The notes below the pieces were generated by a model. It was not told where the DNA came from. It made no database searches and was given only the letters and a program-made list of their open reading frames with translations. From assembly GCF_932294415.1 (NCBI RefSeq), contig NC_065539.1:51169501-51233500 (forward strand): DNA of 64,000 nt. The letters are read 5' to 3'. Positions 10,801-14,360 of this stretch are shown piece after piece. The stretch comes from Quercus robur (lineage: Eukaryota; Streptophyta; Magnoliopsida; Fagales; Fagaceae). The position numbers and the translations under genes were made by a program. The stretch's first letter is position 1; each line of letters starts with the position of its first letter.

Positions 10801-11818
10801 CACGCACGTGCGCGCACACACATCAATGAGCCTGTAATAGGAATCTACAATTTGATATTTTGGGATCAACAAAGTGTACTTTCTCACTCAGCTCAACTCA
10901 GTATCTCTAAACAAGCATCTTGCAAGTGCATACTACTTTGACAGTGGAGTCACCTTTGGAGACGGCTATGTCAAGGTACATTTCAAATGATAATCATGCT
11001 TACTGCTGCCTATGTGTTAGTAGAATAATGGTTAAATGAATAAGTATATCATTTCTTTACACTTTAAACTTTGGGATACATAGTAATTTATTAGGGTATT
11101 AGAACAAGTGATGTTGACTTAAAACTCAAGTCTCCATTCTAGAATACCATATTAGTTACATGATTAAATTGATTATTTCCTAACAGAATTCTGCATATGG
11201 TAAATGTCTTGCTTGGTGGTATTTAGAATGAACAAGGTTACATGTGAAAAATAGTATGGTATAGAAGAAAACTTTAAAAGGTTGTCTTGTTCTATGGCAG
11301 GTTCTTGCAGCAACTCAAACTCCAGGAGAGGCAGGTAAAAAGTGGTTTCAGGGCACTGCAGATGCGACAGTTCCATTGGCCTTTTGAGGTAATTGATATT
11401 CACATTTAATTAGGGTGACAAAAGTTTAGAATTGCTCTTCCATGTAACATATTAATTTTAAGCTATTTGGACAACTTTATTATTGCAAAATTGGAATTAT
11501 ACTGGGTTATATACAGGGACCAATCGATTTTGAAGAACGACTCATTTGACATATTAGATAGCCCTCCTTATTTTGGTTTGATTAACTTTCCCTTATTAGC
11601 TAGAGTCAATATTCTGTACGTAAATATCCTACCTGGGGATTAACTGATAACCTCTCTTCATAATAGGTATCGATGGTCTCAACCTTCTATTTGAATTTGG
11701 TTTATAGCAATATAATTTCTTATTCATCAAAAAGAATGATGTCAAAGGCAACACTGAAACAATTGGAAGACACAAAAATGCCAAAAATAATTATGTAGAA
11801 GGTTTTAGTCATCTACTC

Positions 11819-12904
11819 TTAAGCAGATGATCTTGTAGTTGAAAACTTAATCTGCATAGAATGCGAGTAAGGCTTTCCTTTCTTCACAATCTGTGAAGGG
11901 AAATTGGGGTGGTTCACTGCATCAGGGAAACCTTGAGTCTCCAAACATAGTCCTGCATGGGGTTTATAGATGTGTCCACCTTTTCCCTTAAAATTCTTTT
12001 TCCAGTTACTTGTAGAGAACTGCAGGCCTGGAGCATTTGTTGTCAGCTCCAATACCCTTCCTGACTTCTTATGGTGCACCACTGCAGCGCGCTTCACTTT
12101 ATTGCCCTTGCCACCATTAAGCACATAGTTAATATCATAACCATTAGGCAGGTCCTTGATCCTGCTTCCAATGGTGTGGGGCTTGAGGAAATCATATGGT
12201 GTTCTAGTTACTGGCACAATTTTGCCAGTGGTAATAAGCTCACGATTAACAGGCGTGATGTGAGAGCCAAATATCTGGACTTTATGAGACAGGATATCGC
12301 CGCTGTTGTGGCCACCTAGGTTCCAGTAAGTGTGTTGTGCTAGATTCACTGGAGTAGGCTTGTTTAGAGCCCTGGCTTTCATTGTTACTGTCATTGTGTC
12401 ATGTCCAATGAGTACGTAGGTCACACTGACAATAAGATCACCTGGAAATCCTTGTTCGCCATCAAAACTTCGATAGGAAAAATGAATGTAGGGAACAGCT
12501 CCTTTTTTATACCCGCTCACTCTCCAAGCAACGCGACTGAATCCTCTAGAGCCACCATGAATTGTGTTGTGCCCTTCATTAGCAACTAGTTTATACAGGT
12601 TCCCATTTAAAGTAAACCGAGCATCTTTAATTCTGTTAGCAACCCGTCCAACAATTGCACCAAAAGGCGAGGAACTATTGATGTAATCCTTTACTGAATC
12701 ATATCCAAGAACAACATCAGACAGTTGCCCATTTTTGTCAGGAACAATAAGGGAGACAAGGGATGCACCCCAATTAGTGAACTTTGCAGAGAAATTTCCA
12801 TTCTTGAGCTCATATATCCCAATCTTTTCATGCGCTACATGACAATCAACAAATTCAAAGGCAATTAAGATAATGAAACAAAATAGAATAGATATCTTGG
12901 CCAT
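11819..12904 (-). CDS. Aldose 1-epimerase (galactose mutarotase), single exon, intact
   Basis: Interconverts alpha and beta anomers of hexoses such as galactose and glucose. The 361-residue frame is open from the chosen Met at 12904 to the stop at 11819-11821. I chose this start because the sister copy begins MAKIS too; an upstream in-frame ATG at 12925 would add seven residues. Residues 1-22 form a signal peptide ending VDC, so the protein is probably secreted or vacuolar. Family motifs: [22 protein letters not shown], a His-containing block ([18 protein letters not shown]), [13 protein letters not shown] with the presumed catalytic acid His, and [14 protein letters not shown] with the presumed general-base Glu. 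It lies in the remnant of AGPase intron 4 on the opposite strand. Family relatives I recall have introns, so an old retrocopy origin is possible. Confidence 0.92.
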   Translation of the reverse strand: MAKISILFCFIILIAFEFVDCHVAHEKIGIYELKNGNFSAKFTNWGASLVSLIVPDKNGQLSDVVLGYDSVKDYINSSSPFGAIVGRVANRIKDARFTLNGNLYKLVANEGHNTIHGGSRGFSRVAWRVSGYKKGAVPYIHFSYRSFDGEQGFPGDLIVSVTYVLIGHDTMTVTMKARALNKPTPVNLAQHTYWNLGGHNSGDILSHKVQIFGSHITPVNRELITTGKIVPVTRTPYDFLKPHTIGSRIKDLPNGYDINYVLNGGKGNKVKRAAVVHHKKSGRVLELTTNAPGLQFSTSNWKKNFKGKGGHIYKPHAGLCLETQGFPDAVNHPNFPSQIVKKGKPYSHSMQIKFSTTRSSA

Positions 12905-13400
12905 CTTTTCATCAAGATAGACCAAAAATATATTCTTTTTTCTTTTCTTTTTTTGTTATAAGAGACCAAAGATCTGTTCGGATGAATGTCCAAGAGGAAA
13001 ATGGTTCATATAAATAGACCAACAGATTAGTAAGAGAAGATTGAAACTGACATTGAATGAAATAGATTTTAGAGGTTATAAAGATAAAAGAGAGACAAAC
13101 GTTTTGGTTAATTAAATAACTTTTTAAATTTCTTTACGTTTGTATTATGGTGGAAATTTATGTTGCATTAATATGACCTGCGTTTGCTATTGGTAGAAGC
13201 CATAACTCTAAATATAAGGCTGCAATTAAGCCTCCTATAGAAACTGGATGGAAACTTTTGTGTCTACACTGCATTTTGAATTAAAATATTCATTCCCCAA
13301 CTTCATTGACCATCCATGAAAAAACAAACATTGATGCTAGACCGTCTAAAACATGAAAGGATGAAAGGTATGATGATATTTAATATGAATTCTATGCAAA
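12905..13400 (-). promoter_or_regulatory. Upstream region of the intact mutarotase
   Basis: AT-rich sequence aligning in inverted orientation with about 40.61-41.20 kb upstream of the broken copy, so both loci inherited the same promoter region. A short TTTTTTCTTTTCTTTTT tract lies near the start codon. No single core element is certain. Confidence 0.4.
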
Positions 13401-14360
13401 GGATGCAAGAAGTAAGGAGATTCAGGATGTGTTGATTCTCTTCAGGGATCACTTATATCAGATGGGACTATATGGACTTCGTTCAAATAAGGCACTGAAT
13501 GATGTTCACTCGAAAAGTGTCTTTTTCTCTTCTTCTTTTTTCAATCTTTCAGTTGATATGTTCTTATTCGTTTTGATCCATCTCTTCATTATCAGAATCA
13601 TTGGCAGAGTGGTGCAAATATCACCATCTCTTCTCTGCCAATGGATAACAGGTATATTATTGTTTATCAAAGTTTCCCTAGTTGGGTGACTAAGACATTT
13701 ATAGTTGACCACATATAACCCCATAAAACTGGTTGGTCCTTTCTGGATAATGACACTCAGCTAGTGTAGATGCATAGGCAGAGGGTATTGAACCGTTCAG
13801 GTTTTGCCTATTTTCTCACTTTAACTTTGAATGATTGTTCTTCTTTCTTTCATCGAAGACTCTAAATACTAAAATACTAGTTATTGTATAACCAACCAAT
13901 TTCTTAAAATGAAAGGATTTGAACAAAAAACCTTTTCTTCAACCATGAAAATGGGCTTTCTAGATTTCGCATCTAATTAAATTGTGGGAATATGATAATT
14001 TCTTTCATGAATTATTAGAACCTAACAGGTCGGACTCACACTTTACCAGATCTTTAGTTTCTAGTCTGAAGCCAATAATGGAAAGAAACCCTATACTACA
14101 AGACTACAAGAGAGGAATTTTCTATTGAATGGCACATGGTTTTGCATTGACATGCAGCAAAAAAGGAAGAAAGAAATGTTGCTGCCAATAATCCCAGAAC
14201 TTAGCATTATATTGTTTATCTCCTAGTTCATAATAATTAATAACTATGCCTTGCCTTTAATTATGACAAAGTTTAGTAAAACTCATAAGTCATAACGTCT
14301 CTCATATTTTACAATTTTATTGCAATACTCTTCTCTTATTATTTGTCTCTATTTACAATA

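Follow-up and report, generated by a model that had tools for sequence, protein, structure and literature searches.

How does a gene come to lie free in a chromosome while a broken copy of it still sits inside an intron of another gene nearby, and does the free copy owe its open reading frame to selection? Both questions are raised by the stretch of Quercus robur DNA analysed here (the window; 64,000 nucleotides, C6:51169501-51233500 of a genome of 786 Mb in 42 contigs), in which part of an AGPase gene, together with a mutarotase (aldose 1-epimerase) gene, occurs twice in inverted orientation. The explanation that accounts best for the arrangement, and that we regard as very probable, is retroposition of the mutarotase into an intron of the APL1-type AGPase gene, followed by a truncated inverted duplication and the decay of the nested copy.

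Extent and source of the inverted duplication

By gapped self-alignment, positions 10861-14269 match the reverse complement of positions 40094-43270 at 82-86% identity, gaps counted, in three inverted blocks: 10861-13173 against 43270-40929 (85.3% of 2383 columns, 111 gaps, E = 0), 13208-13828 against 40784-40181 (85.6%, E = 0) and 14177-14269 against 40177-40094 (81.7%, E = 1e-18). In ungapped comparison the arms of the duplication show 82-95% identity. A preliminary description of this DNA had proposed a segment present twice in inverted orientation, about 26 kb apart, and had suggested aligning 10.8-14.3 kb with the reverse complement of 40.0-43.4 kb; the three gapped blocks show that the inverted duplication is real, and the earlier coordinates were off by no more than tens of bases, the start on the left having been set some 40 bp too early. 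The left copy of the segment (10861..14269, plus strand in the orientation of AGPase) begins in the middle of AGPase exon 3 and runs through intron 6, the right copy (40094..43270, minus strand) lies within a complete AGPase gene, and a repeat insertion of 348 bp (about 13829-14176) is found inside the left copy only. Differences between left and right amount to 8.5% (92/1085) in the mutarotase coding sequence, 13-14% (124/907) in the intron-4 sequence flanking it, 15% in intron 5, 9% in intron 6, 24% in intron 3, which aligns poorly, and 5-11% in the AGPase exons.

In a whole-genome DNA search with the left segment as query, for which the best 40 of 76 candidates were scored, the 43 matches listed did not include the segment a third time. 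Beyond the two C6 loci, these matches comprise parts of intron-containing mutarotase genes and short repeat matches, one of which falls in intron 3. The interspersed repeat of about 340 bp at 13829-14176 has relatives on C37, C42, C1 and C4 with 67-74% identity. Capture of the left segment by a transposon was considered and rejected: self-match aside, the right flank yields three weak matches only, and among the best 40 of 930 candidates a common short repeat at about 10585-10716 lies in the left flank, the segment not being bracketed. No capture element is claimed.

The right locus holds an intact APL1-type gene for AGPase large subunit 1 (36902..44927, minus strand), whose 15 exons join into one open frame of 523 aa with GT/AG borders at 14/14 introns, and whose residues 68-523 match residues 23-477 of PDB 9xuk_B, the solved chloroplast AGPase large subunit 1 (E = 2.1e-272). 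The left AGPase sequence, in contrast, begins in the middle of exon 3 and ends before exon 7. It consists, all on the plus strand, of the 3' part only of exon 3 (10861..10975) and of remnants of exon 4 (11301..11388), with a 5-bp deletion, exon 5 (13402..13486), with a +1 frameshift and the donor GT now AT, and exon 6 (13596..13651), so that AGPase is whole at the right locus only, as had been described. Codon models of exons 3-6, which were run with a custom script on fixed trees, include two paralogues only and retain the doubtfully read last six exon-6 codons of one of them, give the left fragment an omega of 1.34 against a background of 0.078; an omega of 1 is not rejected (2dlnL 0.07), whereas equality with the background is (2dlnL 22.7). 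On the same exons the right branch has an omega of 0.128, but its changes are so few that 1 is not rejected (2dlnL 0.39). The left AGPase is a fragment decaying neutrally. The earlier statement that each copy had kept a different gene therefore holds in part: AGPase is found on the right and an open mutarotase on the left, but a reciprocal loss of two whole genes is the wrong picture, because the left AGPase is a fragment only and nothing indicates that it ever was more.

That the right locus is the source, as had been supposed, is supported by the complete host gene there and by a left segment that starts in mid exon 3 between unrelated flanks. An older left locus from which the right one was derived, or descent of both from one larger ancestral arrangement, is hardly conceivable: no support for it was found, the left segment is cut off within exon 3 at one end and within intron 6 at the other, its flanks are unrelated, and its AGPase exons are broken, whereas the right gene is complete and matches the solved large subunit 1 throughout. 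It is likewise very hard to credit that the two loci are misassembled or uncollapsed alleles. Their similarity, and nothing else, speaks for such an artefact, whereas the loci are inverted, about 26 kb apart and differently flanked, differ by about 15% in their introns and by the repeat insertion on the left only, and both lie in one 54.6-Mb contig of the 42-contig assembly.

A processed retrocopy in intron 4

Intron 4 of the intact gene (40605..42755, minus strand), the host of the nested mutarotase, measures 2151 bp, whereas in the two paralogues examined, both of them AGPase large-subunit-like genes, its length is 79 and 149 bp. To judge from its sequence, the mutarotase descends from an intron-containing family as a processed retrocopy, a point overlooked in the preliminary description. 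Three related genes were modelled, two on C2 (A at about 77.108-77.112 Mb and B at 77.124-77.128 Mb) and one on C39 (41.62 Mb); each consists of five coding exons, and the positions of the four introns are common to all three. In the nested pair, that is, the copy in intron 4 and its left duplicate, 4/4 introns are absent and the junctions are crossed without gain or loss of a residue, while the frame extends, by eye, a few codons beyond the stop of A and B into their 3' UTR. A tree of 8 last-exon sequences unites the nested pair with A and B in one clade (support 97/95) and places the 41.62-Mb gene on C39 outside it; therefore the introns came first. It is because all four introns are lost that retroposition is proposed, and the short intron 4 of the two AGPase paralogues fits.

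No run of at least six A was found after the stop of the right copy within intron 4, the longest exact flanking repeat around this copy, considered as a possible target-site duplication, is 9 bp, and blastn gave no clear match in a comparison for UTR homology to the C2 genes. The ends of the retrocopy are too old to be judged for a poly(A) tail or a target-site duplication, which an old copy need not show. That these two traits are not seen would also be expected if the introns had been lost stepwise from a gene duplicated as DNA, without retroposition; such a course is nevertheless very unlikely, as four introns would have gone exactly while all four are kept in the three related genes modelled, and as the nested copy sits within an intron on a different contig.

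The C2 genes form a tandem cluster of intron-containing mutarotase genes (C2:77105001-77135000), two of them with all five exons and a third represented by an exon 3-4 stretch only, near 77133160. The mutarotase genes at 29.24-29.26 Mb on C39 lie outside the full gene models, as do the remaining PF00483 places. At C39:29241099-29241695 there is a mutarotase last exon with four internal stops, and some 14 kb from it, at C39:29255370-29255975, a stop-free one.

One open and one broken mutarotase

The left mutarotase (11819..12904, minus strand) is an intronless coding sequence for 361 aa, its 361 codons being free of internal stops; it matches PF01263 over model positions 3-299 (E = 4.5e-91) and, among 24 genome matches listed, is the only one to cover this model in one frame. 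All of the five catalytic residues checked (Arg, two His, Asp and Glu) are retained, with roles that we take to be those known from the GALM family. Its N terminus resembles, by eye, a signal peptide, which suggests that the mutarotase lineage may be secreted. The upstream region common to both copies (12905..13173, minus strand) contains a candidate TATA-like motif, a pattern match only, about 112 bp before the ATG.

The right copy (41200..42292, plus strand) is a pseudogene that lies wholly within intron 4, antisense to its intact host. It has suffered a net 1-bp loss near 41274 and a 5-bp tandem duplication near 41690, meets a stop (41494-41496) when read in frame from its own ATG, and carries a His-to-Gln change at a catalytic position in the motif NLAQ[H]TYWNL; with the frameshifts set aside, its frame contains no stop. 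The first frameshift adjoins a run of A and could, taken alone, be a sequencing slip, which is less likely for the 5-bp duplication or the His-to-Gln change. The left copy resides outside any host intron, beside AGPase exon remnants only. The 361 open codons on the left, against two frameshifts and the His-to-Gln change on the right, confirm the earlier observation that the mutarotase is open only at the left; the earlier reading that it was copied some 26 kb and out of its host intron is supported, as is that of a broken nested copy.

Selection on the left copy

Whether the left mutarotase was actually kept is a different matter. Codon models, run like those of AGPase with a custom script on fixed trees, give an omega of 0.755 for the left branch and 0.689 for the right, against 0.315 in the rest of the tree. 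On the left, omega is not distinguishable from 1 (2dlnL 0.31) and becomes 1.11 after removal of the first 28 alignment columns. Forcing left and right to be equal costs 0.006 lnL; the left copy does not evolve more slowly than the right, and dropping the first 28 columns does not help. For both branches together an omega of 1 is not rejected (2dlnL 1.82), and their shared omega lies above the family background (M0 against left equal to right, 2dlnL 11.1), the divergence summed over the two branches being dS 0.119 and dN 0.086. Human GALM, A, B and the C39 gene have 103 invariant sites in common; the left copy departs from them at 7, its left-only changes including D220N, P225T and G234R, and the broken right copy at 8, so that the two scarcely differ. 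To call the left mutarotase "kept", as was done before, is too strong, its omega being indistinct both from 1 and from that of the broken copy.

The coding sequence is less diverged than its surroundings (92/1085 differences against 124/907 in the intron-4 flanks, p = 2e-4, Fisher's exact test, intron 3 excluded), which does not tell which of the copies was constrained; of the 92 differences, 37 are assigned to the left, 37 to the right and 18 to neither. Frame-breaking indels are scarcer in the coding sequence, with 2 in 1083 bp, both of them in the right copy, than in the introns, where 18 fall in 1487 bp, intron 3 here included (p = 0.003). With a more cautious count of 9 events instead of 18, chosen by eye from the alignment, the deficit of frameshifts is not significant (p = 0.13); the 56-bp and 54-bp gaps at 13173/13203, for instance, are two events among the 18 and one among the 9. 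Under neutrality, the chance of a left branch free of stops is about 0.2-0.25 (some 0.24 at about 45 substitutions), and that of one free of frameshifts 0.0014-0.038.

It is accordingly a serious possibility, to which we give somewhat less than an even chance, that both mutarotases are pseudogenes, the open left frame being a chance survivor and nothing having been kept. The two omegas, which match each other and 1 and jointly exceed the family background, and the changes at 7/103 and 8/103 invariant sites would agree with this, but 361 codons without stop or frameshift, with a neutral probability of about 0.24 times 0.0014-0.038, would not, nor would the five catalytic residues still present on the left or a coding sequence less diverged than the flanking intron. 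The frame seems to have been open for longer than neutrality predicts, and the left copy may best be read as a gene under relaxed constraint whose frame was held open for much of the time. As to whether it is functional and makes a working mutarotase, the sequence leaves the balance about even.

Order of events

The series of steps would have begun with a spliced aldose 1-epimerase mRNA from the lineage of the C2 tandem genes that was reverse-transcribed, presumably by the enzyme machinery of retroposition, and inserted antisense into APL1 intron 4. Retroposition into this intron is placed first because both loci carry a copy with shared intron flanks. A partial inverted duplication, evident in the alignment, then placed a copy of the stretch between mid exon 3 and intron 6 about 26 kb away, carrying with it the retrocopy and some 0.5 kb upstream of it. 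The AGPase fragment at the new site, as its codon models show, decayed neutrally, and both retrocopies would have had open frames for some time. Later the nested copy would have been broken, leaving the un-nested left copy as the sole readable one, which is its present state. Since the right frame, frameshifts apart, has no stop, the damage on the right was probably the last step; a stop-free frame is also expected in about one in four neutral copies, so that this ordering is tentative.

Selection might have favoured the un-nesting, if the antisense retrogene hampered transcription of APL1 and a host-free copy with its own promoter came first, the nested copy being lost only after the duplication and the starch gene thereby relieved; we consider this reading improbable.

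Relation to known cases

In vertebrates, the LRRTM genes are presumed to have arisen by retrotransposition into an alpha-catenin host intron, on the opposite strand, the nest having been duplicated afterwards, with the host lost at lrrtm4 and the nested gene lost at frog lrrtm2, as outlined in PMC3933685. The series of steps, from a retrocopy in an intron through duplication of the nest to loss, is the same as that proposed here; the duplications presumed in that account are whole-genome duplications, whereas the present one is a truncated local inverted duplication that took along no whole host (PMC3933685). Un-nesting is reported to be rare in mammals: PMC8467205 counts 4 such events in human and mouse, as against 56 cases of lineage-specific nesting. 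These, like the present case, concern a gene that was formerly in another's intron and is now outside; they were inferred across species from 1:1 orthologues, while here a nested remnant and an un-nested copy are found in one genome (PMC8467205).

As to plants, the abstract of PMC5059761 describes the P450 retrogene CYP98A8/CYP98A9 of Brassicales, which likewise was duplicated locally after its origin, with relaxed selection on one copy and a return to a single copy in some lineages. That duplication is in tandem and not inverted, the abstract makes no mention of nesting in an intron, and function was tested (PMC5059761). In the study of dicot retrocopies outlined in PMC4838847, the choice fell on young copies recognized by poly(A), target site and target-site duplication, marks that even young retrocopies do not always show in full; the mutarotase shares with those copies the loss of introns relative to an intron-containing parent, and differs from them in that poly(A), target site and target-site duplication were not found here (PMC4838847). 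Among animals, intronic retrocopies are common, amounting to about 20% of 84,483 in 62 species (PMC5408686).

Among the titles and starts of abstracts listed from the open-licence literature, none concerned a mutarotase in an AGPase intron. The case illustrates a known kind well without adding a new one; its peculiarity lies in the escape of a copy through a truncated inverted duplication, and in a single genome that still shows what each stage left behind. The neutral AGPase remnants beside the free copy provide a built-in yardstick, and a broken nested copy together with an un-nested one in the same genome allows tests of the sequence in which the steps occurred and of whether relief from the host mattered.

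Other features of the window

A reverse-transcriptase zinc-binding domain (zf-RVT, E = 6e-22) at 5153-5839, about 5 kb from the left segment, is probably the remnant of a LINE. At 46876-48874 there is an AT-rich tandem array of about 12 copies of a 168-bp unit with 82% matches. Positions 52871-56406 on the minus strand contain a gene for a leucine-rich-repeat receptor kinase (LRR and Pkinase domains), whose kinase end falls into two frames, an intron being a possible cause; together with the AGPase large subunit, this gene content would be that of a flowering plant. Finally, 31708-32645 and 63113-63399 hold near-identical direct repeats, which match at 98.8% along 323 bp and, in tandem, at 99.3% along 145 bp.
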